Positions 146-29,996 of a DNA stretch of 33,311 bases are shown here, one piece after another. The translations under genes were made by a program, and so were the position numbers. Where the stretch lies: the NCBI GenBank assembly GCA_947176745.1, contig CAMWRV010000031.1, forward strand, positions 1-33,311, written 5' to 3'. Positions within the stretch are counted from its first letter, which is position 1, and each line of letters begins with the position of its first letter. Source of the DNA: an uncultured Muribaculaceae bacterium. GTDB taxonomy: Bacteria; Bacteroidota; Bacteroidia; Bacteroidales; Muribaculaceae. Under the pieces are notes generated by a model. It was not told the origin of the DNA. It was given only the letters and a program-made list of their open reading frames with translations, and searched no databases.

Positions 146-3100
146 TCAAATTGTCATATTCAACTCAAGGGTGCCGCCGGCAGACCTGCCGAGATCAATC
201 CGGCACGTATCCGACAATAGACTCAGATCGGCAGAGCTTCCGTCGGCGATCGTGAGATTCGGAGCAAAATCCTTTGCGCATCCTTCAAGCACAATCCGCG
301 ATTCATGATCCCGCACGGCACAAATGATCCGTGAGTCAGGAGACATCACCGACAGAAGTAATGCGAGTTCCCCCTGACAGGCCGAATCGCACACAAAGAC
401 CGAGTCACATCCTCGCGTTTTCCGCAACTCTTCTGAATGACGACGCAGGAATCCGAGAGTCTTCCGAGCACTCACCTCTATGTCTCGTCCCTTGTATAGA
501 TAACGGTCGTAGACAACCGGAATTATATCTTCAACATCCGATATGCTCAGACGCGCCTCTTCCAAACGCTTACGGATCAATTCTGCCGTCACCAATGTCT
601 GATTCGCCACATCGCCCATTTCAGCAAGAGATGCCGAATAAATCCGGCGGCATACACCGATATAAAGTACCCCTCCGGCCACTATGCATCCTCCGTCGGG
701 CATGATACGCGACAGCCCCTCAATTACGACAGGCACCACATCAAGACTGAGGGCGTCGGCAAGTCTGAACGGCAACTCACTGTCACATTTCTCACCGGCA
801 CTATCCTGCTCCGTAAGAACCGCGATACTGCGGCCTTCCGCGACGAGAGACCGGACACGCTCCACAGTAAGGTCGAATCCATCTGATATCGTCATGAAAC
901 CGCACCATTTCAGAACCCTGCCGATTACCGGACTTGCCGCAAGCGGGATATCCGAAACGAACACGATTTCGGGAGTCAATGACAACAGACAGACAATGCC
1001 TGGAACTGACCGGCAGTTGCCGGTTACTACAGCGGGCCGAGAGAAATCCTCAGCACTCTCGTTTCTGTAAACGAGGCGAATGCCGGGCAGGTGGCGCACG
1101 TCGAAACGCGCAGCCGAGCACACATACCTCCTGAACCGCCGGCGCGCAGCCTCCGAAGGATGGCGTCTAAATGCGAAAAATATAATTCCGAGAATGTAAG
1201 CACACGCGATCTGGACGGATAGCACTGCGGCCGAAACTACGCTGCGAAGCAGTTTCCCGAGCGTTATCGGCCTGTATCTCAGCTTGCCACCGCGCTTCAC
1301 AAGCCAGTTGAACACCAGCGGCGGGAAGAGATAGGCCATAAGCACCACCGAAAGCATTCCGACCACCGTCACCTCGCCGAGAGACCTCAGAGCCGGATGC
1401 CGGGCAAACAGAAGCGTGCCGATGCCGATAAACATAATCAGAGCCGAAACCACTATGCTGTTCTTGTAAGAAGCGAGCACCTTCTTTCTGTAAGCCAGTT
1501 CATAGGAGAGACCTTCGGTCATGAAGATCGTATAGTCGTCGCCCTGACCGAAAATGAAAGTGGCGAGAATGACATTGACAATATTGAACTTCATGCCGAG
1601 CATTCCCATTATGCCGAGAATCCATATCCAGCTGAACGCCATCGGAAGGAAAGAGACAATGGCAAGTTCGACACTCCCGAGCGAAATCCAGAGAAAAATG
1701 AAGACGATGCAACCGCATGCAAAACCGATATAGTTGAAGTCATCAGACAACGTATCGGCTATCGAGCCGTTCATGGAGGCGACATCGAAGAAAATATCGC
1801 TGTCGCTCCCCTCCCGCTCCAGTATTTCCTTGACCTCACCGACCCGTGCCGTCGGCACAGAGAGAACCCTGACCACCGATTTGCGGCCCGTGCCGCTGTC
1901 CTCGCTCAGAGAGCCGGCATAAACAGTCGATATGAATTCCCGGAAATCATCAAAATCCTTTTCTTCATATTCGCCGGCGATCAGATCATCGAAAGCCGAA
2001 AACGCTCCCTCACTGAAACCCTCCTTCCGGGCGGCCTCCGGCAAATCGTGGCCAAGTATGCCGGCATGACGGTTTATGAAACTGTTCCATTTAGCGAGTC
2101 TCTCTTTTCTGACAGAAGCGGGAACAAGAAAAGCCGAAGCATGGTCACGCACAGCCACAGTCCCTGCAGAGACAAGACTGTCGATCACCGGGGCCAGACG
2201 GTTTCCGTCAGACAATGCATCATCCCATGTCCGACCCGAACTTACGGCATAAATGTCCTCACTGCCCTCCGACATATTGACAAGACTCTGAAAATAAGCC
2301 ATGTCATCCTTCTGCTCCGGAGTCATGTAATTGATATTGCGCATATCGGAATCAAACTCCGTGCGCAGACTGAAATAAGCGAACACCACCGTGAGCAGGA
2401 GCACACACCACACAGCCCAGCGGCTTTTCTCCAGCGACAGAGAAGCGATGCGTGAAATCAGCTTCGGATCAGAAGGCTTTCTTTCACCGCGCCGGCGTGT
2501 TCTGACCAGATGCGGCAGAAAAAGAAGCACAAACAGAATCGTGCCCACCAGCAGCAGCGAACTGAAAAGTCCGAGATCATGAAGAGCCGGAGCATCAAGA
2601 GGCACAAGACATAGAAACGCCCCGACCGTGGTGACATTGCCGACCACAAGCGGAGATATTATCTCGCGGAGAGCGGCGCGAGGGTGGTCGCTCTCGCGCA
2701 GATGGTCTATGAGATGCAGCGGATAATTGACAGCGATACCCAGGATGACCGACGCAATGCCGATCACGATCACCGACACGGAGTCATAGAAAAGAGCGAT
2801 TCCGCCCATGGCGAAAAGCCATCCCCACCCGACCGACACCACAATCAGCAATATGTTGCGGGCATTGCGGAACACATAGATCAGCAGCGTCAGGATCAGT
2901 ATTCCGGCAAGACTCACGGCCAGAATGCTGTCTTTCTTGATCCTGTCGGCATTGGCCACGGCAATCACCGGACCTCCGATGATGTGGATATCAAGACCCG
3001 GATTCTCCTTTTCAGTCGCGTCGCGGGCATCGCCGAGCATCCCGACGAGAGCGGCATTGTTCTCCGACTCGCTTGCTCCGAACGCCGATTCCATCATAAC

Positions 3101-3742
3101 CACAGCCCTCTTGCCGTCGGGAGTCAGTATGCACCCGTCGTAGGTCTCGAAATCGATCGACATTCCCTGCCGGCCCAGGCGGCCCAGCACAGGAGAGAAA
3201 AGATTGAGCGGATCACGCGCTATATTTGACGCGAGAACATTTGAGGATGGAAACATCAGCATCCCTTTGTCTTCAGCCAGTTGCCGCGACACGTAACCGG
3301 GACTCGCCAACAGGCTGTCAATGCGTGCATAATCACTGTCAGTCAGAAAATAAGGAATGTTATCATAGACATAATCGGCGATTCCGAGCATCCGGTCCAT
3401 ATCTATGCCGCTGACTATCTCGCGGATATAATGCATGCTGTCGGCCCGAGCGACATTCTCAGAGAAAGCAGCCACACCGTCGGCCAGCAGTTGCGGATCG
3501 ACCTCCGTTGTGTCGCTGACACCGACAATGGCATAGATCCTGTTTGCTCCCGACACATCCTGATAGACGGCGAGTGCCGTCTGGTTTTTCTCGTCAAGCG
3601 GTAGGAAGTCAGATATATCCTCCTTGTAGCTGAGCGTAAAGAGGGCTGCCAGAAGCAAGATGGTCATGCTCAGGAAAAGCCCCCACGCAAGAGCCGGCGT
3701 CTTTCTGAAACGGTCGTATATGCAGAGTATGATTCTGTTCAT
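146..3742 (-). CDS. MMPL/RND-type lipid exporter with a degenerate acyltransferase-Rossmann tail
   Basis: Predicted inner-membrane exporter of 1198 residues, expected to move the finished aryl-polyene lipid across the inner membrane. Residues 16-38 form the first membrane helix, followed by a periplasmic domain (about 40-270), a helix bundle (272-415), a second first-helix (441-460), a second periplasmic loop and a second bundle (670-815). GQGDDYTIFMTEG at 732-744 holds the Asp-Tyr pair seen in the proton path of MMPL proteins. About 385 residues follow the last bundle. They are not part of a normal MMPL protein. Residues 901-1010 align by eye with the acyltransferase domain encoded at 10111-12099, but NHQSHLD has become NCRSVPG (909-915) and FPEGTR has become LTEQDS (976-981). 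Residues 1077-1170 align with the Rossmann-like end of the same protein. Start ATG overlaps the preceding stop (ATGA). Last gene of the operon. Exporter call is firm; the role of the tail is unknown. Confidence 0.9.
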   Translation of the reverse strand: MNRIILCIYDRFRKTPALAWGLFLSMTILLLAALFTLSYKEDISDFLPLDEKNQTALAVYQDVSGANRIYAIVGVSDTTEVDPQLLADGVAAFSENVARADSMHYIREIVSGIDMDRMLGIADYVYDNIPYFLTDSDYARIDSLLASPGYVSRQLAEDKGMLMFPSSNVLASNIARDPLNLFSPVLGRLGRQGMSIDFETYDGCILTPDGKRAVVMMESAFGASESENNAALVGMLGDARDATEKENPGLDIHIIGGPVIAVANADRIKKDSILAVSLAGILILTLLIYVFRNARNILLIVVSVGWGWLFAMGGIALFYDSVSVIVIGIASVILGIAVNYPLHLIDHLRESDHPRAALREIISPLVVGNVTTVGAFLCLVPLDAPALHDLGLFSSLLLVGTILFVLLFLPHLVRTRRRGERKPSDPKLISRIASLSLEKSRWAVWCVLLLTVVFAYFSLRTEFDSDMRNINYMTPEQKDDMAYFQSLVNMSEGSEDIYAVSSGRTWDDALSDGNRLAPVIDSLVSAGTVAVRDHASAFLVPASVRKERLAKWNSFINRHAGILGHDLPEAARKEGFSEGAFSAFDDLIAGEYEEKDFDDFREFISTVYAGSLSEDSGTGRKSVVRVLSVPTARVGEVKEILEREGSDSDIFFDVASMNGSIADTLSDDFNYIGFACGCIVFIFLWISLGSVELAIVSFLPMAFSWIWILGIMGMLGMKFNIVNVILATFIFGQGDDYTIFMTEGLSYELAYRKKVLASYKNSIVVSALIMFIGIGTLLFARHPALRSLGEVTVVGMLSVVLMAYLFPPLVFNWLVKRGGKLRYRPITLGKLLRSVVSAAVLSVQIACAYILGIIFFAFRRHPSEAARRRFRRYVCSAARFDVRHLPGIRLVYRNESAEDFSRPAVVTGNCRSVPGIVCLLSLTPEIVFVSDIPLAASPVIGRVLKWCGFMTISDGFDLTVERVRSLVAEGRSIAVLTEQDSAGEKCDSELPFRLADALSLDVVPVVIEGLSRIMPDGGCIVAGGVLYIGVCRRIYSASLAEMGDVANQTLVTAELIRKRLEEARLSISDVEDIIPVVYDRYLYKGRDIEVSARKTLGFLRRHSEELRKTRGCDSVFVCDSACQGELALLLSVMSPDSRIICAVRDHESRIVLEGCAKDFAPNLTIADGSSADLSLLSDTCRIDLGRSAGGTLELNMTI

Positions 3743-4896
3743 TGTAAGGATATTGCGTTGGAGCGTGACTTGACGGGATTGGCGTAAATGCCGAGAAATA
3801 TGTCCATAAGCAGTTCAAGGTCGCAGTCCTCATATCGGGCGAGTTCACCGATTCTGCCGCAGAAGCTCTCCTTCTGCGCGTCGGTGTATCTTGCCGAATA
3901 CCGCTTGGTGCCGTAACGCATGTCGAACGCTATGTAATTGTTCGGATGAAGATGATACGCTGCATTGATGCGGCGGTCGATAAGCGCCGCTACCGACTTG
4001 AAATACTCCTGACTGGTCTGATGTCCGAACTCTTCCAACTCATCCATGCCGATCGGCTCGCAGATCTCGATATGCACGTGTCCCTTGTCGGATATCATCC
4101 CGGTGAGGATGCTGTTGAGATCCTCGCCAGGCTTCTTGACATATTTAGTAAACCGCGACTCATACAGTTCAAGAGTCTTGAGAATGTCGCACGTCTCCCA
4201 TTCATAGGAGACCGACACCGGAACAATATTCAACTCCGCGAGAGACGCCAGTTTGTCACCCGGCATGCTGCTCGCGAACATCCTGACGAGCCCCGGCTCG
4301 GTCCGGTCGATGCCGTCCTTGGTACGGCCGTTGCGCTGGGCGATCCATACGGACTGACGCTTGCCGGTGATGGTGTGGCGTATATATTCAGAATTGAGCA
4401 GCGACGATCTGTAGAAATCCTTCATACTTCCGCCCCGTTCGACACGAAACATCTTGTTTGACCGTCCGATGTCGATCACAAGAGGATGACACATAAGGTT
4501 GGCGCCGAAAGTGATCTCCGTGGTCTCATGGCCATTGACATGCAGTATATACTGCAACAGACTCGAATCGAGCATTATGTCTCTGTGGTTGGAGACAAAA
4601 AGATACCTGCGCGAAGGGTCGAGACGGTCAAGTCCGCCATAAGAGAACTCCGTCATGCTGCGGCGTATGACCTGCTCGTTGACCACCGACATCACCTCAT
4701 GCTGGAAACGCCCGATCGAATCAATGCCCCGCACCTGCGAGCGCACCTCCTCCATATTCCTGTCAGGAAAGACATACGAAGCGATCAGAGGAAAAAGCTC
4801 GCTCGCGGCTATACGCTCCATGGCGGCAGGGATCTCCCGGTCGACATACGGTCTTATATTCTCAAAATCGGATATCACACAATCAGTGGCGGCCAT
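3739..4896 (-). CDS. PlsB/PlsC-like acyltransferase
   Basis: Membrane-associated acyltransferase of 385 residues. The acceptor-binding block is NHRDIMLD at 103-110, with five residues rather than four between the catalytic His104 and Asp110; glycerol-phosphate acyltransferase relatives in Bacteroidota, as I recall them, share this spacing. AQRNGRTKDG at 186-195 is the second conserved block, with basic residues for phosphate contact. No membrane helix is evident, so it probably binds the membrane surface. It may transfer an acyl or polyenoyl chain from ACP to a glycerol-phosphate or glycolipid acceptor. Its stop overlaps the start of the MMPL gene by 4 nt and it lies 2 nt from the ligase gene, so it is translated as part of the operon. 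A housekeeping role in phospholipid synthesis is less likely in this setting. Family certain, substrate not. Confidence 0.88.
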   Translation of the reverse strand: MAATDCVISDFENIRPYVDREIPAAMERIAASELFPLIASYVFPDRNMEEVRSQVRGIDSIGRFQHEVMSVVNEQVIRRSMTEFSYGGLDRLDPSRRYLFVSNHRDIMLDSSLLQYILHVNGHETTEITFGANLMCHPLVIDIGRSNKMFRVERGGSMKDFYRSSLLNSEYIRHTITGKRQSVWIAQRNGRTKDGIDRTEPGLVRMFASSMPGDKLASLAELNIVPVSVSYEWETCDILKTLELYESRFTKYVKKPGEDLNSILTGMISDKGHVHIEICEPIGMDELEEFGHQTSQEYFKSVAALIDRRINAAYHLHPNNYIAFDMRYGTKRYSARYTDAQKESFCGRIGELARYEDCDLELLMDIFLGIYANPVKSRSNAISLQ

Positions 4897-4898
4897 GA

Positions 4899-6206
4899 TT
4901 ATTTCTTCTGACGGTTATCGATGAACTTTATCGGTTTACGGTTGTCTGACGGATTGTTGATCCGGTAGACATCATCGGGCGACAGCACCTCGACGATCGG
5001 AGCTACACGGATCCGCGACCGGAAACGGTCCTTGAGATCCTTGATCACGTCAAACGGCTGCTGTGACGCAACCCCGACACGCACCACCACCTCGTCGGTG
5101 CCCGCGAAACTGTTGCGCACCTCGACCACATAATTCACTACATAGGGAGTATTGTCAAGCACATCGTTAATGGCGGGAGGATATATGGTGGTACCCTTCA
5201 GCTTGATCATGTTGTTTTTTCTGCCGACAAGAGGAGTAAGACGGTAAGACCACCGTCCGCACCCGCACTGTCCGGTGATACGGCTGCTCATGTCGCCGGT
5301 GCGGAAGCGCAGCAGCGGCATGCCCTCGACTCCGAGAGTCGTGACCACCACCTCCCCCACTTCGCCGTCGGCGACAGGACGGTTGTCATCACCAATTATC
5401 TCGACGATGATGAGTTCGGGATGCACATGGCCGCCGCAACCGCAGGGACACTCCGAGAAGGTGGCCCCCATTTCGGTCGAGGAGTAAGTGGCGAAAAGCT
5501 CCACATCCCATTTCTCGCGGATACGCGACCCGAGCAGGTTGAGCGAGAAATCCTGCTCGCGCAGCCCCTCGCCGATTCCTATGATCCGGCGCACGCTCGA
5601 CGCCCTGTAGTCGATGCCATGCTGCTCGGCATAATCTATCAGGCGGAGGATAAACGACGGCACACACATCAGAGTGTCGGGGCGGAGGCGGCGGATAGTG
5701 TCCCACTGCAGTTCGGGCATTCCGTTGCCGACGCGGATCACACTCGCCCCGAGCTTGCGGATGCCAAGAAAATATGCGAGACCGGCCATGAAACGCTTGT
5801 CGAGCGTGGTCATGAGCTGCACGATGTCGCCCGGCCTGACGCCCGCGCACTCAAACGATTTCTTCTCGTTGAGAGCCAGACGCTCGAGATCGCTGTCGGT
5901 GCATCCGAACGTGACCGGATCACCCAGCGTGCCGGAAGTGGTGATGTAGTCGATCACCTTGTGCGGCGGCACACACAGGAAATCACTGTTATGGAGCTGC
6001 AGATCCTTCTTCTCCGTGAACGGAAGGAGCTGAAGGTCGTCGATCGTCCTGATCCGCGCCGGATCGATTCCGCAGTCGCGGAACATGCGCTGATAAAACG
6101 GCGAGCAGTCTGCAAGATACCTGATTGCCACCCTGAGCCTTTCATCCTGAAAATCACGGATCTCTTCGGGCGAACGGAACTCTATGTCTTGATCTTGATA
6201 CGTCAT
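4899..6206 (-). CDS. PaaK-like AMP-forming ligase (aryl acid activation)
   Basis: Adenylate-forming ligase, 435 residues from the chosen ATG, related to phenylacetate-CoA ligase. TTSGTLGDP (89-97) is the ATP-phosphate loop, YSSTEMG (241-247) the adenine/Glu motif and RTGD (302-305) the ribose-binding Asp motif. A Cys-rich stretch (C253, C255, C257, H260, H262, then C314 and C316) could bind zinc. In this cluster it is expected to activate 4-coumarate, the product of the ammonia-lyase, and load it on an ACP, as the ligase of aryl polyene pathways (ApeH) does. The start at 6206 overlaps the upstream stop (ATGA); an in-frame start 42 nt upstream is possible but would run deep into the esterase gene. 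CoA rather than ACP as acceptor cannot be excluded. Confidence 0.88.
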   Translation of the reverse strand: MTYQDQDIEFRSPEEIRDFQDERLRVAIRYLADCSPFYQRMFRDCGIDPARIRTIDDLQLLPFTEKKDLQLHNSDFLCVPPHKVIDYITTSGTLGDPVTFGCTDSDLERLALNEKKSFECAGVRPGDIVQLMTTLDKRFMAGLAYFLGIRKLGASVIRVGNGMPELQWDTIRRLRPDTLMCVPSFILRLIDYAEQHGIDYRASSVRRIIGIGEGLREQDFSLNLLGSRIREKWDVELFATYSSTEMGATFSECPCGCGGHVHPELIIVEIIGDDNRPVADGEVGEVVVTTLGVEGMPLLRFRTGDMSSRITGQCGCGRWSYRLTPLVGRKNNMIKLKGTTIYPPAINDVLDNTPYVVNYVVEVRNSFAGTDEVVVRVGVASQQPFDVIKDLKDRFRSRIRVAPIVEVLSPDDVYRINNPSDNRKPIKFIDNRQKK

Positions 6207-7129
6207 CTGAATAACTTTGAGAGCCAGTTTAAAAAGTCTTCTTTCCATGTTATTGCCTCGGCGGTAGTCTTTGAGGCGGTGGCTCCGAAGCCATGACCTC
6301 CGGTCTCGAACCTTACATAGCGGTGAGGCACTCCAACTGCCGTCAGCGCCGAGTCGAGAAGTACGGAATTACGGTAGTCAACCACAGGATCATCCACACA
6401 GTTCATCAGGTAGACCGGAGGCATGTCGGGTCTGACATGCCGCTCAAGCGAAAGGGAATCCTTCATCTCGCGGCTGATGGCGCGACCTTCGCCAAGCAGT
6501 CCCCTTCGCGACCGCTTGTGAACCGACTTGTCGACAAGCGAAACCACCGGATAGATCGGAGCAATAAAGTCGGGACGCAGCGAGACCTCGGGCGAGAGCC
6601 CCACAAGAGAGAGCACACCGCTGTCGAAAAACATACCCGACATGGCAGTAAGATGGCCGCCGGCAGAGAAACCCATCACACCGAGTCGGTCGGGATCGAT
6701 GTTGAATCTGTCGGCATTCTCGCGCACGAGCTGTATGCTGCGCTGCACATCCTGAAGCATGTCGGGATAACGGTTGCCGCGTGCGAGAAGCCTGTAATGC
6801 GTTATGAAACCTGCGATACCTCCCACCCGGTATTCGAGCACAAATGCCGAAATGCCGTTGGATCTCAGCCATTCGGCCACACCGACGCCCTCCGTCTTTG
6901 TGTCGAGCCAGAAATAGCTGCCACCGGGGCAAACGATGCAGGCAATGTTGCTGTCGCCGTCGGCGAGATAAGGGGTCAGCCTGACCTCGGCGCGGCATGA
7001 CGTGCCCTCCCATATATTCAGCGAGGGCTCCTGCGCGGCAGCGGAAACTGCTGTAAAAGCCGTGATAACCGTAAAAACCACGAGAGCCATCACAGACGGA
7101 ATCAGATATTTATACGTTCTGCGTAACAT
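6203..7129 (-). CDS. secreted alpha/beta-hydrolase (esterase/lipase-like)
   Basis: Alpha/beta-hydrolase of 308 residues with an N-terminal signal sequence (KY followed by a hydrophobic stretch ending in AVSAAAQ around residue 33), so it should act in the periplasm or at the outer membrane. Catalytic triad candidates are Ser155 in GFSAGGH, Asp246/247 in CVDDPVV and His279 in GGHGFG; CPGGSY (67-72) takes the oxyanion-hole place. The fold is that of BD-FAE/Aes-like esterases. It lies inside the pigment operon, overlapping the FAD oxidoreductase stop by 20 nt and the ligase start by 4 nt. A secreted esterase in this position could trim, release or remodel the exported ester. A carbohydrate esterase role is possible but has no support from neighbours. 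Confidence 0.85.
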   Translation of the reverse strand: MLRRTYKYLIPSVMALVVFTVITAFTAVSAAAQEPSLNIWEGTSCRAEVRLTPYLADGDSNIACIVCPGGSYFWLDTKTEGVGVAEWLRSNGISAFVLEYRVGGIAGFITHYRLLARGNRYPDMLQDVQRSIQLVRENADRFNIDPDRLGVMGFSAGGHLTAMSGMFFDSGVLSLVGLSPEVSLRPDFIAPIYPVVSLVDKSVHKRSRRGLLGEGRAISREMKDSLSLERHVRPDMPPVYLMNCVDDPVVDYRNSVLLDSALTAVGVPHRYVRFETGGHGFGATASKTTAEAITWKEDFLNWLSKLFR

Positions 7130-8621
7130 CGTTTATCTTTTTTAAAAGCACATTGCGACCGAGTATCGCCTCTGCCGTATTGATAGCGGTCAGCGGTACT
7201 CCGCATATGCCATGAAGATTTATATTCTGTCCGGTCAGCAGAAGATTTCTGACCTTTGTGAAGACGGGAAGCTGCGAGCGCATGAGGTTTTCGCAATCCT
7301 TGCGTCCTCCGAAAATCGCACCGTTCCTCGTATTGAAATAATCGCGGACCGTCAGCGGACTCGCCGCATACACATTGGCGACCATTCCGCCGAATCCGGG
7401 AAAGAGATTCTCAAGTCTGCGCATTATCGCGGCCACCCGCTCCTCCTTCCACTTCCGGTATTCATCTCCGCGCTTTCCGAGAGAAGTATGCTTCCAGCGG
7501 GCCACCTGATCGAAGCCCATTATGCAATGCACAAGCATACGCTCCGCAAACTCTCCCTGTCCCGCATCGGGCGGCGTCATGTACATGAAGCCGAGCGGCC
7601 AGCGCTCGCCGGCGACTTCGGCCTGCGTCCATATCGAACCGAAATCCTCCATGTAGTAGCATGTGTGGTCAATATAGGGAAAAGACTGAGGCTTCAGGTC
7701 GATAAAGAGTGAAAAGGCTGAACATGAATCGGACACCTCGGTTATCCTCGTCACGAAACCCTTCGGGAAAGTCCCTTCAGGAACTAGCCGGAACATAGAG
7801 ACCGGATGGATCGACGATATATACCAGTCGGCAGTGAACCTCTCTCCCTTCACGGTCTCGACATAATCCACCATCCTGTCGGAGACAGCAATCCGGCTGA
7901 CCTCGCAACCCGCCAGTACCATGCCGCCGTGAGACTCGATGACACCGGCGAGAGCGTCGGCAAGCTGCTGGCTGCCGTCGACAAACCTCGATGCTCCGTT
8001 GATATAAAGCACATTGATCAGTGCGTGTATGTAGGCCGGAGTGTGCCCGGCAACGCCACCGTAAAGAGGATTCAGATACGCCAGGATTTCCCGGAGTCTG
8101 GAATCCTTGACATAATGTGCGATCAGTCGGTCGGCAGCCCATACGAAACGCTCGGAATGGACAGGAATACCCTCCGGTTCCTCGCGGAGATAAAAGAGGG
8201 GGACCTCTTCGGAAAGCCGGTAAAGCTCATCGACATATTGCCGTATGCCATCCGCCTCATGCGGAAAATATGCGGACATGGCAGCCACGAAAGCATCGCG
8301 CCCTGACGGAATTCTGAAAACCTCGCCCGTCCTGCCATAACGGATCTCATCCATACACCCGCTGTCGATATGGTGCAGGTCGAGCATGTCGAGAATACCG
8401 AGATAACGGCAGATCTTCGTAAGAGTGCCGTTGTCAGTGAAACCACCCATGACGTGCATCCCGGTCTCGAAGATCCTGTCGCCGCGACGGAAGCACTGCA
8501 GACCGCCTCCGATGATACGGTTCTTCTCAAGAACCGTCACCCTGACACCGTTTTTTGCCAGAAAAGCACCGGTGAAAAGGCCACCGATACCACCCCCTGT
8601 TATGACCGCGTCTGTATTCAT
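7110..8621 (-). CDS. CrtI-like FAD-dependent oxidoreductase (copy 2)
   Basis: Flavin oxidoreductase of 503 residues in the phytoene desaturase / retinol saturase group. The dinucleotide motif GGGIGG at 9-14 ends with Glu32 for the ribose, followed by the family pattern GGGLQCF (38-44) and ETGMHVMGG. The C-terminal FAD motif LLLTGQNINLHG begins near residue 460. The start at 8621 is chosen because the Rossmann motif then sits at the N-terminus and because it forms an ATGA overlap with the upstream paralogue; the longer reading frame to 8879 only repeats the paralogue's coding region. It is a clear homologue of the gene before it. Flexirubin and aryl polyene chains get their double bonds from ketoreduction and dehydration, so what this enzyme oxidises, reduces or isomerises is not known. 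Confidence 0.87.
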   Translation of the reverse strand: MNTDAVITGGGIGGLFTGAFLAKNGVRVTVLEKNRIIGGGLQCFRRGDRIFETGMHVMGGFTDNGTLTKICRYLGILDMLDLHHIDSGCMDEIRYGRTGEVFRIPSGRDAFVAAMSAYFPHEADGIRQYVDELYRLSEEVPLFYLREEPEGIPVHSERFVWAADRLIAHYVKDSRLREILAYLNPLYGGVAGHTPAYIHALINVLYINGASRFVDGSQQLADALAGVIESHGGMVLAGCEVSRIAVSDRMVDYVETVKGERFTADWYISSIHPVSMFRLVPEGTFPKGFVTRITEVSDSCSAFSLFIDLKPQSFPYIDHTCYYMEDFGSIWTQAEVAGERWPLGFMYMTPPDAGQGEFAERMLVHCIMGFDQVARWKHTSLGKRGDEYRKWKEERVAAIMRRLENLFPGFGGMVANVYAASPLTVRDYFNTRNGAIFGGRKDCENLMRSQLPVFTKVRNLLLTGQNINLHGICGVPLTAINTAEAILGRNVLLKKINDVTQNV

Positions 8622-10114
8622 TTTTCCGATTCCATTATCTGTCTGTAGATTTTTTCGGCAGTAAGCAGTTCGGAGCACGTGACGATGCTTCCCACCAGCA
8701 CTCCGAGCATGCCGTGAGAGTTTACATTCTGTCCGGTGAGCAGAAGATTGGGCACCTTCGTCTTGTGCGGCACACGGCACGCCGCACCGAGAGTTATGTC
8801 CTTTGCGACACCATACATCGAGCCGTCCTGTGTGCCGGTGTAATCGAGATAAGTCAGCGGCGAAGCCGTGAACAGGCATTCGATGCTGTCGCGCAGACCG
8901 GGGAATTCCCTCTCCACCTCATCTATAAGCAGTTCGGCCTTGCGCCTCTTGAAATCCTCATAATCGGCACCGCGGCGACCCACTGACGTGCCCGCCCAAC
9001 GCGCCACGTCATCCATCTTCATATACGAAAGAATGACTCCGCTCGACGCATAAGCCGGCGAAGGTGAATCGCAGAAATGCATATAGAGATACCCCTTGGG
9101 CCACGACGCTTCGGTATAGTCCTCGCATCCCCAGGGGGAACCCGCATTGAAACTGTAATAATTGGAATTGAGATAAGGCACGCGCCCCGGCTTGAACTTC
9201 AGATATACGGAGAAACCGGCGGTGGTGTTGCGCAATGCCGACATGCGATGCCTGAATGCAGGGCGTATGAGTCTGGTATCGAGCATCTCCATCACACGAG
9301 CCGGATGTATGGCCGCTATGACGAGATCGGCAGGGATGAAATCTCCGTTAGCCGTCAGGACCCCTGTAGCACGCGTGTCATCGCATACGATCCTGACAGC
9401 GCGGCAATTGGTTACGACCTCTCCGCCGGCATCTCTTATGGTAGCGGCGAGCGACTCTGCCACGGCGTCGCTTCCCCCCACTATACGATATGCGCTCTGG
9501 TTGTAGAAATCCATGATAAAGGCATGCTGCGAGAAGGGTGTCCTGTCTTTTTCGGCTGCATAAAGCGGGAGATTGCCTACAAGGACATCCTTGATCAAAG
9601 GGTCATCAAACAGACCGTCCATCACTTCATTGATACTGACAGTCTGATAATGAGTGCTTACAGCCACATCACTCTCAGCATACCTCAGCGAATGGAGAGA
9701 AGAGGCCTGCGATATCTCTTCTATTATATCGTAATAGCGAGCAATATTGTCGGTCTCGCGGGGGAAATATTCCGACATCTGCGAGATAAACGCATCGCGA
9801 CCGTTGGCAAAGCGGAACCGGTCGCCGCCGATCGACACTATATCGTATGCAAGCGGATCAAGACGGCTAAGCGGAATGTCGCCAAGACCGAGAAAACGCA
9901 TCAGCCTGTGGAGCGTCTGCCCCGGCGACGCGCTGCCGATGAAATGCATGCCGGTCTCAAAACGCGCGCCACGCCGAGAAAAGCACTGGAGACACCCCCC
10001 TATCCTGCTGTGCTGCTCGATCACGGTGACATCATAGCCGTTGCGCGACAGCATTACGCCGCACGAAAGTCCACCGAGACCACTGCCGATTATCACACAC
10101 TTTTTTCTTTTCAT
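8618..10114 (-). CDS. CrtI-like FAD-dependent oxidoreductase (copy 1)
   Basis: Flavin oxidoreductase of 498 residues, paralogue of the next gene. GSGLGG at 10-15 binds the FAD pyrophosphate, followed by IGGCLQCF and ETGMHFIGS; the C-terminal FAD-contact motif LLLTGQNVNSHGMLG starts near residue 457. Both copies share the GLQCF/CLQCF and ETGMH signatures at the same spacing, which points to an old tandem duplication with divergence rather than a recent one. Overlaps both neighbours by 4 nt (start ATG with the stop of the hotdog-glycosyltransferase side, stop TGA with the next start), so the pair should be made in similar amounts and may form a heteromer. Substrate unknown; a hydroxylated, desaturated or saturated polyene or lipid are all possible. 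Confidence 0.87.
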   Translation of the reverse strand: MKRKKCVIIGSGLGGLSCGVMLSRNGYDVTVIEQHSRIGGCLQCFSRRGARFETGMHFIGSASPGQTLHRLMRFLGLGDIPLSRLDPLAYDIVSIGGDRFRFANGRDAFISQMSEYFPRETDNIARYYDIIEEISQASSLHSLRYAESDVAVSTHYQTVSINEVMDGLFDDPLIKDVLVGNLPLYAAEKDRTPFSQHAFIMDFYNQSAYRIVGGSDAVAESLAATIRDAGGEVVTNCRAVRIVCDDTRATGVLTANGDFIPADLVIAAIHPARVMEMLDTRLIRPAFRHRMSALRNTTAGFSVYLKFKPGRVPYLNSNYYSFNAGSPWGCEDYTEASWPKGYLYMHFCDSPSPAYASSGVILSYMKMDDVARWAGTSVGRRGADYEDFKRRKAELLIDEVEREFPGLRDSIECLFTASPLTYLDYTGTQDGSMYGVAKDITLGAACRVPHKTKVPNLLLTGQNVNSHGMLGVLVGSIVTCSELLTAEKIYRQIMESEK

Positions 10115-12099
10115 GATCTTATCTCAAGTCTGAAGATTCCGTTATCAAGGTCAACGAATGAATCCTGACTGCACAGGCTGATCGTCGCGTCGTAAGGGGC
10201 GCCGGCATCATGATCACTGTCCCAGACCGCATGCACAAAATGCAGATTGGCAGGCAATGCGGCCGTCGAAGTTGCGGTCATGTGATCAGACGCGTCACTC
10301 TCGAATGCATATACATCGGTCTGCTTGTTGACAAGCGCGTAAAGAAGCGGGAAAACTCCGATTCCACTGTTGAAAATCCGGACCTTGCGATAATTCGCGC
10401 CGGCATCGACTATGGAACTGTATCTTTCAGCATCCCTGAGAGTGCGCCGGCATCGCGACACGACATTCCACCCCCGCCAGGCGTACTTGTATGAAACGAG
10501 ACTTCTGAAATACATCATATTCTCCTTGCGGGCGGCCACACTGTCATACTTGTCGCGGATTATGCCGCGCAGCATGGAGGCCTGCTTTCTGAGCGGCAAT
10601 CCCTCAAGTCCGGAGGCCGGGATACGGTCGAGCACGCTGAGCGTGATCTCCCCCCGCCTGAACATGAGATCTTTCTTGGGGAGATAATGGCCCGCGCCGT
10701 GAAGAACCATCGGCACTATGTCGAGACCGAGTTCGGCGGCAAGCATGAAGGCTCCCTGATGGAATCTGAGGATCGAGCAATCAGCCGAACGGGTCCCCTC
10801 GGGGAAAATGACAATCGAATATCCGCGCTCGCGGAGATCACGGAGCCGCGGCATTATGGCCTCCAGTCCCTCCGACACCGGCAGAAACTCGGCATTGCGG
10901 ATTATGTCGCGGTAGAGGGGATTGTTCCACGCCCACGCGTTGGTCAGAAAAATCAGTTTGGGATGCCTCGACATGATCACCGGGATATCGAGATGAGACT
11001 GGTGGTTGCATACGATCAGAGCCGGTTGCCCGAAGTTCTCCCCTCCCGGATTATCAAAATCCGCGCTTGCACCCGGAAACCGCTTCACAAGATGCTCCGA
11101 AATCCAGCACAGCATCTTGTGGAATCTGAGTTTATTTTTTTCTGAATCACCTCCCAGGCGAAGATAGAGACATGCAAACGGCGTGAAAACAACCATTGAC
11201 CAGAAAGTGAAATACGTTATGCCGTAGATCGATCTGGCGAGTCGCCCAAGTGTGACGGCAGCCTCACGTCTTTCTCCGTTCCGGTGAGTGAACGGCCTGA
11301 AGTCGCCTTTGAAAATTCTCTTTTGTCGCAAAGCGTTCCAGCCTCTTGCAGGAAGACCGTAGACGACCGCGCAGACACAAAGCATAGTGTTGAGAACACT
11401 GATGCGCGAGAAATCGAGCACCGGTCTGAAATGCGAGACGCGCTCCGACTGCGGCGGGTAATACACGCGGATGGGTATAGAGACTATCCTGACACCATGC
11501 CATGAGGCGAACACCATCAGTTCGAGCTCCGCCTCGTAGCGGCTTGTCAGCAGCGACAGGCCTCGCAGTCTTTTCAACGGATAAGCGCGATAACCGGTCT
11601 GGGTGTCGCGAAGCCTGAGACCGGTCTGGAGATTGAACCAGAAGTTGGAGAAACGGTTGGCAAACGAGCTTTTGCCGTTGATATCGACACCCGACAGATC
11701 GCGTTCGCCGACAATGAGGGCACCACGGTTCTCGGCGATTGCCCTCACGAAGAGAGGCAGGTCGCCGGGAAAGTGCTGACCGTCGGAATCGATGGTGACC
11801 GCATACTCATATCCGAGTTCGAGAGCCTTCCGGAAACCATGTTTCAGCGCTGCGCCTTTCCCACGGTTGCGTCCGTAAGAGACCGTGACTATCGAATCGC
11901 CGAAAGAAGAAAGAATGTCGGCGGTCGCGTCGGTGCTTCCGTCGTTGACCACGATCACATCACCGGCATACTCCAGCACTCCCTCGACCACGTCGCGCAG
12001 AGTCGCGGCGTTGTTGTAGGTCGGAATCAGCACGCATATGCGGTGCCTCCGCATGGTTCTGACCAGATCCTCCCGGTCGATATGCCCGTTTTCGCTCAT
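10111..12099 (-). CDS. GT2 glycosyltransferase - LPLAT acyltransferase - Rossmann-like fusion
   Basis: Three-part protein of 662 residues. Residues 20-240 are a GT-A family 2 glycosyltransferase of the dolichol-phosphate mannose synthase type: PTYNN (26-30), VNDGSTD (51-57) and the metal site DSDGQ (104-108). A hydrophobic segment near 290-315 probably anchors it in the inner membrane. Residues 345-520 are an acyltransferase with HX4D (His366, Asp371) and FPEGTR (432-437), both intact. Residues 535-640 look like a worn SAM-methyltransferase or other Rossmann fold (IFNSGIGVFPLL, then AFESD), with no full SAM motif. A GT2-acyltransferase fusion is typical of aryl polyene/flexirubin clusters and suggests sugar and acyl transfer to one lipid carrier. 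The same last two domains appear, degenerate, at the end of the MMPL exporter. Start overlaps the hotdog stop by 4 nt. Confidence 0.9.
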   Translation of the reverse strand: MSENGHIDREDLVRTMRRHRICVLIPTYNNAATLRDVVEGVLEYAGDVIVVNDGSTDATADILSSFGDSIVTVSYGRNRGKGAALKHGFRKALELGYEYAVTIDSDGQHFPGDLPLFVRAIAENRGALIVGERDLSGVDINGKSSFANRFSNFWFNLQTGLRLRDTQTGYRAYPLKRLRGLSLLTSRYEAELELMVFASWHGVRIVSIPIRVYYPPQSERVSHFRPVLDFSRISVLNTMLCVCAVVYGLPARGWNALRQKRIFKGDFRPFTHRNGERREAAVTLGRLARSIYGITYFTFWSMVVFTPFACLYLRLGGDSEKNKLRFHKMLCWISEHLVKRFPGASADFDNPGGENFGQPALIVCNHQSHLDIPVIMSRHPKLIFLTNAWAWNNPLYRDIIRNAEFLPVSEGLEAIMPRLRDLRERGYSIVIFPEGTRSADCSILRFHQGAFMLAAELGLDIVPMVLHGAGHYLPKKDLMFRRGEITLSVLDRIPASGLEGLPLRKQASMLRGIIRDKYDSVAARKENMMYFRSLVSYKYAWRGWNVVSRCRRTLRDAERYSSIVDAGANYRKVRIFNSGIGVFPLLYALVNKQTDVYAFESDASDHMTATSTAALPANLHFVHAVWDSDHDAGAPYDATISLCSQDSFVDLDNGIFRLEIRS

Positions 12100-12467: not shown

Positions 12468-12942
12468 CTTCATCAATTGTTTCAGGAAGATCCTCCAGAG
12501 GAGCAAACGTATATCTGAATTTTCGTTTTGTTTCGATCACGGTCACCGAGTCACCTTCCGTATCCACCCAGTATCCGCTCATGTCATCATAAGGAATGTC
12601 GAACAACACTTGCAGACAGAAACCGAGATCGGCGCGGAGCACCCGCTTTATATACCATTTGTCGAGAAACCGGGCAACCGAGGTCAACTTCATCTTCCTC
12701 TTTTTCTTTGAGTAGATGAAATCTACAGCGGAGACTCCAAACTCATTGACAATGCATCCCCTGATCTCATCTCCGCAGACTCGCGAGATCATTATGCCTG
12801 ATATGGCGGCCTTGCCCATGTCCATGCCGAACTCATATCTGTTGACATAGCCGGAGGAGCAGGACGCTGCGGCATCCTCTTCGCAATGACCCGAGGCACA
12901 GATCAGCAGCAGACTACTTAGGAATAGCAAAAAGCGCGTCAT
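12442..12942 (-). CDS. secreted protein of unknown function, possibly LolB-like
   Basis: Protein of 166 residues with a hydrophobic signal sequence (TRFLLFLSSLLLICASGHC). There are cysteines at the end of the signal region but no proper lipobox, so it may be periplasmic or an atypical lipoprotein. The mature part is rich in beta-strand-like segments and ends in an acidic tail (EDLPETIDEDD). I do not recognise the family with certainty. It follows the LolA-like gene with a 29-nt overlap; proteobacterial aryl polyene clusters pair a LolA-like carrier with a DUF3261/LolB-like lipoprotein, so this may be the functional counterpart that receives the pigment lipid at the outer membrane. That role is inferred from position only. 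Confidence 0.75.
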   Translation of the reverse strand: MTRFLLFLSSLLLICASGHCEEDAAASCSSGYVNRYEFGMDMGKAAISGIMISRVCGDEIRGCIVNEFGVSAVDFIYSKKKRKMKLTSVARFLDKWYIKRVLRADLGFCLQVLFDIPYDDMSGYWVDTEGDSVTVIETKRKFRYTFAPLEDLPETIDEDDTERQSI

Positions 12943-13555
12943 TTACAGATACGTTTGTCTTTACGTTCTTGAGCTGAATATTCGTGCGGTCATTGTTTTT
13001 TTCATATATGTCGATTTCCGACACCATAAGGCCGTTCTTCCGGAACGACAGCACGATTTTTGAGAACATTCTCTTCATCTCCTTTTTAGACGGAACGAGA
13101 GTCACACGCCACACCGTGCCACCGTCAGCCACATCGACCGAAAAATCAGACGACCCCGACAGGACTGTGCCTGTCACAGTACCCATCATGATCCTTGCGA
13201 TCTCCTTGAAAACCTTGTTGGCGTCGGTGTCAATGACATCCTTGCGCGACTTATTGCCGACATAGACCTTTGTGCCGTTCAACACAAAGAGATACTGATA
13301 CGGGGAAGTGTACTCCCATCTCAGTCTGTTGGGCTGACGGTAATACATCTTTCCTTCCGAGACCATCTTGTCGCTCAGAAGCGACAGATATTTGGTCTGG
13401 GTGAAAGAACACGTCATCGACTTCATGGCTGAAGCCGCCGAATTGATGCTGCCGATGATCTCCTGCTTGCGGGACGCGGTCAGCCCTGCGGCCGAAACAA
13501 GCTGGCAGAAGAGCGAGAACAGCAATATAAGCATTGTCTTCCTCATAATCCTCAT
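12914..13555 (-). CDS. LolA-like periplasmic lipid/lipoprotein carrier
   Basis: LolA-type carrier of 213 residues with a signal peptide (MRKTMLILLFSLFCQLVSAAG). Typical features are MTCSFTQTKYLSLLSDKMVSEG near residues 45-66 (split here across the first strands), the pair YYRQPNRLRWEYTSPY that forms the hydrophobic barrel edge, and the NKVFKEIARIM helix. It should shuttle a hydrophobic cargo through the periplasm, most likely the polyene lipid rather than lipoproteins since it is encoded inside the pigment operon. Starts at 13555 or 13546 (both ATG) are possible; it lies 2 nt from the preceding stop and overlaps the following gene by 29 nt. A general lolA elsewhere in the genome would be expected. 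Confidence 0.87.
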   Translation of the reverse strand: MRIMRKTMLILLFSLFCQLVSAAGLTASRKQEIIGSINSAASAMKSMTCSFTQTKYLSLLSDKMVSEGKMYYRQPNRLRWEYTSPYQYLFVLNGTKVYVGNKSRKDVIDTDANKVFKEIARIMMGTVTGTVLSGSSDFSVDVADGGTVWRVTLVPSKKEMKRMFSKIVLSFRKNGLMVSEIDIYEKNNDRTNIQLKNVKTNVSVNDALFAIPK

Positions 13556-18612: not shown

Positions 18613-19054
18613 TGTCACTTCCTTTATCTTCCGATTCCCTGAGAGCGATCTTCATTCCGGCTTCGGCCACAAGCCGGTCGCCGACCTTCACCTCGGCTTC
18701 GACAAGTGTCATTCCAAAGATCTCCTCGCGGACGGTCACGGTGGTACGCAGCACATCTCCCGTTTTCGGACGGCAGAACAGATTGAGCCCACGGATAGCG
18801 CCGATGAATCCGATCTGTATGCCTTTCCGGAGAATGTATTTGTTGACATATCCGATACGCGCCGCGCAGGTCTGTGCCATGTTCTCTATTATGCCTGAGG
18901 CGGAGAAATATCCGTTGTCGACAAAGATGTTGTCTTCGGAGACAAGAGTCTCCGTTACAGTCTTCTCCTCATCAAACCAGACAAGCCGGCCGACCATTAC
19001 AAAAGGATCTTTCTGCGGAAGCAGTTCATGAATGTCTATCTTGTCAAATTCCAT
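18596..19054 (-). CDS. FabZ/FabA-like hotdog protein with Glu but no His
   Basis: Hotdog-fold 3-hydroxyacyl-ACP dehydratase relative of 152 residues. LLPQKDPFVMVGRL (11-24) is the N-terminal signature seen in dehydratases of aryl polyene clusters, and ENMAQTCAARIG (57-68) matches the FabZ helix, with Glu57 at the place of the catalytic acid. The FabZ His loop (GHFPGxP) is missing; the aligned stretch is DNGYFSASG. The small hotdog protein at 12096-12467 has the His but not the Glu, so the two may build one mixed active site. The start ATG at 19054 overlaps the upstream stop in TGATG; the frame extends 12 nt further only to a TTG. Confidence 0.86.
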   Translation of the reverse strand: MEFDKIDIHELLPQKDPFVMVGRLVWFDEEKTVTETLVSEDNIFVDNGYFSASGIIENMAQTCAARIGYVNKYILRKGIQIGFIGAIRGLNLFCRPKTGDVLRTTVTVREEIFGMTLVEAEVKVGDRLVAEAGMKIALRESEDKGSDNDTTR

Positions 19055-19965
19055 CAATTTGCCCAAAAATCAAAAAAGTTATACCACTGCTCCGGATGCT
19101 GTCTGACTGTAGCCTCAAGCATCGCGGCATACTGCCTTGCCATGTCGAGGGCCCGGGTTCTGACAGGACCCGCGACGCGAGGTTCTATCTTCCTTATAGT
19201 TATGCCGTAAGCCTTCGCTCCGGTTTTCATGACCGACACGAAAAGAGCCGGCACCTCTCTCATGGCCGCCAGCATGAACGCCCCCTGTGGGAAACGCGCC
19301 GTTTCTCCGAAGAATTCAATGGGGAAAGACTTCGGAGATCCGAATATGCGGTCGGCAGGCATGCTCAGTATCTCGCCGTCTGCAAGAGCCTTGTCGACTA
19401 CGAAGAGATGCGACATGTCGGGCGACATCGGTATCATGCGGATATTCTTGTCGCGAAACATCTTGTTTCTGTTGGCCATGACCGATTCCTTCTCGCCGCC
19501 GAACACAAGGGCGTTGAACCGCTTTTTGTCGGCCACAAGCGAATAGCCGGCAATCTCGTAATTTCCGATATGCGAGCTCAACTGTATGAAGCCGGACGCC
19601 TGCTCAGAAAGTTTCATAAACAGGTCATGCCCTTCGACATCCATTCTGAACCGCTTGCCGGCATACATGGCGAACCGGTCGATGACGACCTGAGAGAAAG
19701 CGCAGTGGTTTCTATAGGTCATCCAGCAGGAGCGGATCGCGCCATAGCCGAAACGCCGGCGGTAGAAACTGTAGATCGCCCGACGCTCGGCCTTGTTGAC
19801 GATCATGGCTGGGGGAACCACAAATATGAACGCAAACAGATACAGCAGACGCATATCGGTGACTTTCAGAACCCTGACAAGCCATCGGTGCATCCATCCG
19901 CTTCCGTAGGTCGTACCGACCCACGCATCGTGCTTCAGCTCCTCTGTAGCGGAATCTGCGGTCAC
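19054..19965 (-). CDS. LpxL/HtrB-like acyltransferase
   Basis: Acyltransferase of 303 residues in the lipid A late acyltransferase family. SSHIGNYEIAG (130-140) gives the HX4E catalytic pair His132 and Glu137; a hydrophobic segment near 38-56 anchors it to the inner membrane. FPQGAFMLA later in the chain is the second conserved block. In the operon it probably moves the aryl-polyenoyl or a fatty acyl group from ACP to the lipid acceptor; together with the two other acyltransferases the operon can acylate at least two or three positions. The start appears to be GTG, sharing bases with the ACP stop (GTGA); the next ATG lies 24 codons inside and would drop a conserved stretch. Confidence 0.87.
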   Translation of the reverse strand: MTADSATEELKHDAWVGTTYGSGWMHRWLVRVLKVTDMRLLYLFAFIFVVPPAMIVNKAERRAIYSFYRRRFGYGAIRSCWMTYRNHCAFSQVVIDRFAMYAGKRFRMDVEGHDLFMKLSEQASGFIQLSSHIGNYEIAGYSLVADKKRFNALVFGGEKESVMANRNKMFRDKNIRMIPMSPDMSHLFVVDKALADGEILSMPADRIFGSPKSFPIEFFGETARFPQGAFMLAAMREVPALFVSVMKTGAKAYGITIRKIEPRVAGPVRTRALDMARQYAAMLEATVRQHPEQWYNFFDFWAN

Positions 19966-26005: not shown

Positions 26006-26785
26006 TTAATGTCTTGACTGGGCGAAGAGCCATGGGAGCAGCGTCGGGGTGTTGAACGCGAGAGTCCAGCAATCATGGCCGGTTCCTGCAAATTCCACAT
26101 AATCGACTTCTGCGCCGGCCGAATGCAATGCCTTGTATGCCTCGCGGCTGCATATCGACGGTATCTCATCATCTTCCTCTCCATGAAATATCATGAAACT
26201 GACGTTTTTTGCCCCCACCAGCCGATCGGGATTCACAGCACCGCATATCGGCACCGCTGCGGCAAACAGCGAAGGATACCGGCACACCAGATCATACACA
26301 GCGATCGCGCCCATGGATATTCCGACAATATATATGCGGTCGCGGTCGATCGGGTAGTTTCTTACGAGTTCGTCGACAAGGCCGACCACCAGTTCTTCGG
26401 TTCTTGACTCATCGGGCAACCCGGCTCCGGGCATGAATTCACTTTCGTCTACACGGCCTGTCCATGTCTTCTCCTTGCACTGTGGAAAGACAACATATGC
26501 CGGATAGCGCGACGCATTCACCGGATTGGAGAACATGGAAGCTCCATGCGCAAGCTGACTCTCATTATCCGTGCCACGCTCTCCGGAGCCGTGAAGAAAT
26601 AGAACAAGCGGATACTTTGCTCCCTCCTCAATCTTTTCGGGAGAAAGCATGCGGTAAGGCAGCCTGTCGGCACCGTCGGTAAACAGACACTTCGCATATT
26701 CCTGATGCGGAGGGGGCACAGATGCCGATGCCGCAACCGGCAATATGGAACATGCAGCAAGCAATACAGAAATCAAAATTCTCAT
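26006..26785 (-). CDS. secreted alpha/beta-hydrolase (PHB-depolymerase/feruloyl-esterase-like)
   Basis: Secreted hydrolase of 259 residues with a signal peptide (MRILISVLLAACSILPVAASA). Ser157 in GISMG is the nucleophile, Asp206 in HGEEDDEIP and His237 in GTGHDCW complete the triad, and LFLHGSGERG (62-71) is the oxyanion-hole strand. The HGSGERG and GISMGA pattern is that of small Bacteroidota esterases often named phospholipase/carboxylesterase, dienelactone hydrolase or PHB depolymerase. The ATG at 26785 is used; the frame extends two codons to a TTG. It is monocistronic, on the same strand as the pigment operon but separated from it by the repeat block. Substrate unknown; an ester of an aromatic acid is possible but not shown. 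Confidence 0.87.
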   Translation of the reverse strand: MRILISVLLAACSILPVAASASVPPPHQEYAKCLFTDGADRLPYRMLSPEKIEEGAKYPLVLFLHGSGERGTDNESQLAHGASMFSNPVNASRYPAYVVFPQCKEKTWTGRVDESEFMPGAGLPDESRTEELVVGLVDELVRNYPIDRDRIYIVGISMGAIAVYDLVCRYPSLFAAAVPICGAVNPDRLVGAKNVSFMIFHGEEDDEIPSICSREAYKALHSAGAEVDYVEFAGTGHDCWTLAFNTPTLLPWLFAQSRH

Positions 26786-26826
26786 AACCAAATCTTTGAT
26801 AATTTAACAAACAAGCCCCACAACAG

Positions 26827-26845
26827 GTTTTCTTTTCAAGAAAAC
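26827..26845. promoter_or_regulatory. palindrome in the divergent intergenic region
   Basis: GTTTTCTT (26827-26834) and AAGAAAAC (26838-26845) form an 8-bp inverted repeat with a 3-nt centre, 42 nt before the esterase start and about 70 nt before the -7-like element of the exporter gene. It could be an operator serving both genes. No promoter for the esterase was recognised nearby. Confidence 0.4.
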
Positions 26846-26912
26846 AGACTCCAAGACCGCATGGCGGGACAAGTATTGCCGGCAACGATGACCGCCGTAT
26901 TGTTTTTTTTTG

Positions 26913-26920
26913 TAATTTTG
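26913..26920 (+). promoter_or_regulatory. candidate -7 element of the MFS exporter gene
   Basis: TAATTTTG matches TAnnTTTG exactly on the plus strand, behind a run of nine T. No TTTG box lies at the right distance upstream, so the -33 part is weak. It would give a leader of about 100 nt containing the hairpin at 26961-26991. Confidence 0.5.
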
Positions 26921-26960
26921 CATTCCGAAAAAGCCACCGGATTTGACAAAATCGAGTACA

Positions 26961-26991
26961 AGAGCTTGTCGAGTAAGACTCGACCGGCTCT
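26961..26991 (+). promoter_or_regulatory. leader hairpin before the MFS gene (attenuator-like)
   Basis: GTCGAGT (26968-26974) pairs with ACTCGAC (26978-26984) around a 3-nt loop, and after a 2x2 internal loop AGAGC (26961-26965) pairs with GCTCT (26987-26991). A T-rich stretch (TTATCTTTATATAA) follows directly. This is the shape of an intrinsic terminator placed between a promoter and the start codon, 38 nt before the ATG. It could be an attenuator or an mRNA 5' stabiliser. Confidence 0.6.
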
Positions 26992-27028
26992 TTATCTTTA
27001 TATAACATACAGAAACAACCGGACTATC

Positions 27029-29986: not shown

Positions 29987-29996
29987 GATTTCCTGA

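Follow-up and report, generated by a model that had tools for sequence, protein, structure and literature searches.

An uncultured Muribaculaceae bacterium carries, at the start of the 33,311-nt stretch of DNA analyzed here (the window), a gene for an MMPL exporter with a long C-terminal tail that resembles part of a neighboring glycosyltransferase (GT) fusion. This raises the questions of what the tail is, which of the two genes had it first, and what it still does. By gene content, the window holds a flexirubin-type cluster, marked by a FlxY-type acyl-CoA ligase that scores above the family cut-off; the pigment itself is predicted. The cluster also holds an aromatic amino acid lyase, LolA-like and LpxL-like proteins, and ketosynthases, a gene set that fits a flexirubin/aryl-polyene-type cluster. 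The features on which the argument draws are as follows.

146..3742, minus strand: exporter ORF of 1198 aa, made of an MMPL core, a dead LPLAT, and a half-Rossmann
1298..3742, minus strand: MMPL core, residues 1-815 (PF03176; boundaries from alignment)
533..1258, minus strand: dead LPLAT region, residues 829-1070 (homology, motif loss, accelerated evolution)
998..1018, minus strand: NCRSVPG in place of NHQS-LD, residues 909-915
800..817, minus strand: LTEQDS in place of FPEG-R, residues 976-981
146..526, minus strand: half-Rossmann, a truncated methyltransferase remnant, residues 1073-1198 plus stop
488..502, minus strand: YLYKG (YxY[KR]G signature), residues 1081-1085
3739..4896, minus strand: separate gene for an LPLAT-like protein of 385 aa, with a 4-nt overlap onto the exporter start (PF01553, 26.8 bits; cut-off 23)
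4899..6248, minus strand: FlxY-type acyl-CoA ligase (NF053551, 671.6 bits; cut-off 520)
10111..12099, minus strand: fusion of GT2, an intact LPLAT, and a half-Rossmann, 662 aa (PF00535 and PF01553 over cut-off)
10987..11007, minus strand: intact NHQSHLD of the GT fusion
10789..10806, minus strand: intact FPEGTR of the GT fusion
11239..11301, minus strand: GT-fusion linker FRPFTHRNGERREAAVTLGRL, which resembles the exporter's end-of-core linker and is aligned from exporter residue 811 (BLASTP)
12914..13555, minus strand: LolA-like periplasmic carrier (PF03548)

Several other observations concern the surroundings of these genes. Two Crt-like ORFs (7110-8879 and 8618-10114, minus strand) overlap by 262 nt as listed, and the first of them probably begins later than listed, its FAD motif starting near residue 90. 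In three other loci, ORFs of 990-999 aa (L177:11789-14788, L178:5159-8131, and L185:12882-15854) match a Crt2-type oxidoreductase at about twice its length and are probably two Crt-like proteins fused. A SusD-/SusC-like outer membrane pair (28250-30058 and 29997-32960, minus strand) adjoins the window cluster, with an MFS transporter (26705-28231, plus strand) beside it.

The exporter core matches PF03176 at 81.6 bits (cut-off 20.5) in two stretches, as an MMPL/RND exporter does, and MMPL is the only family that Pfam finds in the whole protein. Searched alone, the tail had no match in Pfam, and PF01553 was detected neither in the tail nor in the complete exporter; a phmmer search of PDB chains with the tail also gave no match up to E=1. 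Direct comparison with the neighboring 662-aa fusion by BLASTP aligned exporter residues 811-1103 with fusion residues 267-561 (95.5 bits, E=4e-24, 24% identity), and the local score of 237 compares with 34.7 +/- 4.6 (maximum 53) for 500 shuffles. In a MAFFT alignment, the two tails are collinear through both C-termini. A profile of 89 related tails, the window tail included, matches the PlsC-type 1-acylglycerol-3-phosphate acyltransferase 5kym (E=1.2e-26) over the LPLAT part of the tails, while its last ~80 positions match class I methyltransferases (HemK 2b3t, E=6e-5); PF01553 is matched by 87 of the 89 members at E<=0.01. Among the NCBIfam models, none that covers the complete fusion gave a score. 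The initial annotation was thus right about the homology to the LPLAT-Rossmann part of the neighbor and, at the family level, about what the two parts of the tail are. It was also right about the order of the alignment, but not about its extent: the match starts at residue 811, before the claimed residue 901, and positions 146-1050 cover only the distal ~300 residues of a homologous tail that starts near nt 1310.

The window exporter therefore has LPLAT- and Rossmann-homologous parts after its MMPL core, which is the trifunctional MMPL/LPLAT/methyltransferase layout. The motifs that mark the LPLAT of this class (NHXXXXD and PEG-R) are replaced by NCRSVPG and LTEQDS, in agreement with the earlier description of NHQSHLD becoming NCRSVPG and FPEGTR becoming LTEQDS; compared with PlsC, the window copy has neither HX4D nor PEG-R. 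After LTEQDS, a 5-residue gap relative to the related exporter L009 lies at the site of the RFHKGA block. Farther on, YLYKG and QGE are kept, but the methyltransferase part extends only 113 residues past YLYKG, where full-type exporters have a median of 202, and contains no [DE]xGxGxG (motif I), so that it is not a complete class I methyltransferase.

This three-part layout is already known by name. NCBI PGAP calls WP_264793640.1, from a plasmid of Aureispira anguillae, a 'trifunctional MMPL family transporter/lysophospholipid acyltransferase/class I SAM-dependent methyltransferase'. Its parts stand in the same order as in the window and relatives bridge the two in a continuous series, whereas the window protein has lost the LPLAT motifs and has about half of the methyltransferase, without motif I. 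No functional study of the trifunctional fusion was found in the open-access literature. A survey of MMPL exporters for the same tail, a check that the initial annotation had proposed, showed that the tail is common and that it forms a continuous series leading to the window. Searches with the window exporter (E<=1e-60) found matches in 10/111 genomes of the genus, 37/397 of the family sample, and 78/295 of the order sample; a full-length relative as query matched 24/296 genomes of the phylum sample, 22 of them from other orders of the same class. These four samples overlap. The layout, which had been thought undescribed, is therefore common in the order and class. After 7 of 141 rows were dropped, 134 exporters could be scored for architecture. 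An intact LPLAT is combined with a full methyltransferase in 48 of these and with a half-length one in 37; the LPLAT is absent and the half methyltransferase kept in 35; the LPLAT is decayed in five and partial in another five, and four exporters have no tail. One genome encodes two three-part exporters (L166, G496:C69, and L141, G496:C66), one of which has lost the LPLAT motifs while its methyltransferase motif I is intact. A record titled Clostridiales (L012) holds a Bacteroidales-type cluster and is probably a mislabelled MAG.

When was the LPLAT of the window exporter lost? Its nearest relatives, L009-L011, have both LPLAT motifs intact. The window is 69-71% identical to them in the core, 34% in the LPLAT, and 38-44% in the half-Rossmann, and the corresponding values for L009/L010 against L011 are 67-68%, 56%, and 45-49%. 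Relative-rate counts with L013 as outgroup gave 69 window-only against 17 L011-only changes in the LPLAT (p 1e-8), 58 against 62 in the core (p 0.78), and 13 against 6 in the half-Rossmann (p 0.17). Other outgroups concurred for the LPLAT (62-69 against 14-22) and for the core, and their half-Rossmann counts ranged from 8:9 to 15:8. An independently decayed exporter, L192, showed 54:8 in the LPLAT and 63:36 in the core when compared with L013 (outgroup L160). Decayed relatives are scattered, and a loss-only count on the core tree, which has open forks, gives ~12 losses of an intact LPLAT among 85 derived rows, 36 of which are intact. Because L009-L011 keep both motifs and the excess of changes is specific to the LPLAT, its death appears to be recent. 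Judged from sequence, the window exporter is a decayed form: the truncation of its methyltransferase is old, and the death of its LPLAT is recent.

A dead module may nevertheless be kept for another purpose, and the initial annotation had suggested that it holds lipid or docks the active enzyme. As a conserved pseudoenzyme, the LPLAT would keep its fold, hold the lipid product or dock the active LPLAT, and feed the pump. Its 242 codons run without a stop, against an average of 9.4 stops after shuffling of the nucleotides, yet an open frame is required in any case to reach the half-Rossmann. It keeps 16/24 conserved non-catalytic positions but only 3/16 catalytic-block positions (manual count; Fisher p 0.004), and p2 (0.37-0.39) lies below p3 (0.68-0.72). 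Some fold constraint may remain, although past time as an active enzyme would also explain such leftover constraint. Moreover, the LPLAT is fast only in the window lineage, where it is the fast-evolving part; sister lineages have deleted it, and 35/134 exporters live without one. The inactive form is not conserved across orthologues, L009-L011 being intact, and the dead state is seen in a single genome. We therefore regard a retained holding or docking role as unlikely. Even harder to believe is an enzyme with an active site rebuilt around Cys910 and Glu978: Asn909, Ser912, and Glu978 are indeed kept, but the His and the Asp are gone, as are the blocks PEG-R and RFHKGA, through substitution or deletion. 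Fast evolution and the restriction to a single genome argue against it as well.

The end of the tail behaves differently from the LPLAT. The YxY[KR]G signature is present in 80/82 half-type exporters, including 34/35 of those without LPLAT, and GE occurs within the expected stretch in 73/82 half-type exporters. By contrast, [DE]xGxGxG is found in 1/82 half-type as opposed to 44/48 full-type exporters, a pattern that missed several full-type rows owing to the cut-off used. The 24 tails without LPLAT that were compared all share Y-x-Y, G, I, another G, and N, and almost all share E. It could be argued that the entire tail is in decay and serves no function, not even in its half-Rossmann, since the half-Rossmann changes rapidly in every derived exporter, is somewhat relaxed in the window (p12/p3 0.63-0.66 vs 0.49-0.53), and is missing along with the rest of the tail in four exporters. 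However, the near-universal signature, the invariant columns, and a relative-rate excess that does not reach significance speak against such general decay, which we consider improbable, if slightly less so than a retained pseudoenzyme. These patterns suggest instead that the half-Rossmann is the selected part of the tail and that the LPLAT in between must stay in frame even if useless; its frame would stay open because the half-Rossmann behind it is still selected.

We next turn to the origin of the two tails, for which gene order is informative. Where the GT has no LPLAT, the exporter lies directly downstream in 68/69 loci, often with a 4-nt overlap; where the GT carries one, the exporter is adjacent in 1/46 loci and elsewhere in 45/46 (adjacency being an exporter start within 300 bp of the GT end). 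The exporter LPLAT is intact in 67/69 loci of the first kind (62 by regex and 5 more on reading) and in 12/46 of the second, in which both copies are intact; the loci are related, so Fisher p-values for such counts overstate. The GT-LPLAT motifs are present in 48/48 ORFs by regex, L167 and L180 among them being one gene cut differently. A single locus, L175, has the order GT, exporter (LPLAT A), Crt2, Crt1, FlxY, LPLAT gene, and free LPLAT/half-Rossmann gene (B), and the window has GT+A, Crt2, Crt1, Est, FlxY, LPLAT gene, and exporter+B. The L175 B gene and the window exporter have an identical 4-nt overlap in front.

The trees are in line with this arrangement. In the LPLAT tree, support is 100/99 for grouping the free L175 copy with the derived exporter tails and 98/94 for grouping the GT LPLATs with outer exporter tails, the latter group lying inside deeper exporter tails. 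The GT-domain tree nests the fused domains as a single clade (96/94) among the unfused ones. Long GT fusions begin their tail with an exporter-like linker: 8/15 of them, and 0/33 short ones, score above the 99th percentile of shuffles with a linker profile, although the linker of the window fusion scores 1.3, not above shuffles. Half-Rossmann profiles favor outer over derived exporters for 11/11 long fusions, but a deep profile also beats the derived one in 9/11. The initial annotation had read the exporter tail as a copy of its neighbor; gene order, the LPLAT tree, and, weakly, the linker suggest the reverse. For a module copied from the GT fusion to the exporter one can cite the homology of the two tails within one cluster, and AU tests that reject a clade of GT plus derived exporter tails marginally or not at all (p 0.0455 and 0.143). 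The same tests give p 0.10 and 0.219 for all exporter tails without GT, and they reject (p 2.9e-5) a clade that unites the long GT fusions with derived exporter tails while excluding the short fusions. The nesting of fused GT domains within unfused ones also counts against such a copy, and the outer exporters of the same order and class, which carry LPLAT and methyltransferase in 67/69 loci where the GT has no LPLAT, largely refute it. We hold it to be very unlikely.

Because of the gene order and the grouping of GT LPLATs with outer exporter tails, the original exporter tail is probably the one now found on the GT, and the present tail of the exporter would be a paralogue that has become redundant. 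We are fairly confident of this direction, from exporter tail to GT, but the branching behind it is not secured, because the AU tests (p 0.046-0.22) leave room for other topologies. The route may have been tandem duplication with reciprocal core loss or movement of the core. The KSb and FlxY trees split outer and derived clusters much as the exporters do and did not decide between whole-gene duplication and core movement, and no cluster with two complete exporters was found. As far as the open-access literature shows, this relocation is undescribed.

Some loci depart from the usual gene order. In L101 (L231:8010-12273, plus strand), GT+LPLAT directly precedes an exporter without LPLAT, and in L097 the GT and exporter are 719 bp apart. 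At L228:6085-8358 (plus strand), outside the 46 loci, one 757-aa ORF comprises GT, LPLAT, and an esterase-like part and is followed by a tail-less 815-aa exporter; an apparently solo LPLAT in L109 proved not to be free-standing but the end of this GT+LPLAT+esterase ORF.

Taken together, the tail probably represents the decayed end state of an old exporter of flexirubin/aryl-polyene-type clusters in which an MMPL core, an LPLAT, and a class I methyltransferase were joined. In outer clusters, a plain glycosyltransferase gene comes first, and the exporter, which would carry LPLAT copy A, begins within that gene or immediately behind it. Once the exporter core was removed, copy A would have been left fused to the glycosyltransferase, with the core now after the separate LPLAT gene and before a second copy, B, which survives alone in one genome (L175). 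By analogy with E. coli, cytosolic acyl transfer to the lipid anchor would now be performed by the GT-LPLAT fusion, and possibly also by the separate LPLAT, and the MMPL core would move the lipid to the periplasm for the LolA-like carrier. Copy B on the exporter would then be redundant and, in the window, an inactive stretch kept in frame. The GT-copy motifs, present in every fusion, and the lower share of intact exporter LPLATs where the GT has its own are what one would expect had the GT copy taken over. Since 12 loci keep both, an exporter copy does not become superfluous as soon as the GT has one. A neighborhood listing, read by eye, gave no sign that loss of the LPLAT from the exporter goes with presence of the separate LPLAT gene; a gene of the 3739-4896 type had no match in loci L013, L015, L020, L037, and L054 and is present in L010, L011, and the window.

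The aryl polyene cluster of E. coli offers the closest comparison. There, the proposed scheme has ApeD and ApeJ link the aryl polyene to its lipid anchor, after which ApeM, ApeL, and ApeN bring it to the outer membrane (PMC8253772). The RND exporter ApeM (L195) resembles the window exporter in lying beside GT/acyltransferase, LPLAT, LolA-like, and ketosynthase genes (PMC8253772), but it has 772 aa, PF03176 only, and no tail. Likewise, ApeJ (P0001) is a glycosyltransferase/acyltransferase with GT2 and an acyltransferase-like second part, like the window fusion (PMC8253772); unlike it, ApeJ has no PF01553 match and is not matched by the tail LPLAT profile. By eye only, the second part of ApeJ (L195:9213-10889, minus strand) resembles the LpxL-type acyltransferase of the window (19054-19965, minus strand, PF03279).

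A more tentative proposal, which we put forward with less confidence than the decayed end state itself, concerns what the half-Rossmann may do. Having lost the SAM motif and distal half, acquired a new YxY[KR]G ... GE signature, and outlived LPLAT deletions, it might act as a cytosolic gate or docking cap, on an exporter core lifted from its own gene with the enzyme part left fused to the upstream glycosyltransferase.

The decayed exporter would thus exemplify an enzyme module that changes partners inside a cluster. In most of the examined clusters that lie outside the derived group, the last-step acyltransferase would reside on the exporter; within that group, it would reside on the glycosyltransferase. 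Intermediates have it on both, and the resulting natural series could be used to ask whether fusion of acyltransferase and exporter matters for channelling. The short conserved C-terminal segment, a putative cap, is the part of the exporter worth testing, and the product name 'trifunctional' does not guarantee three live functions, since one or two of them can be dead.
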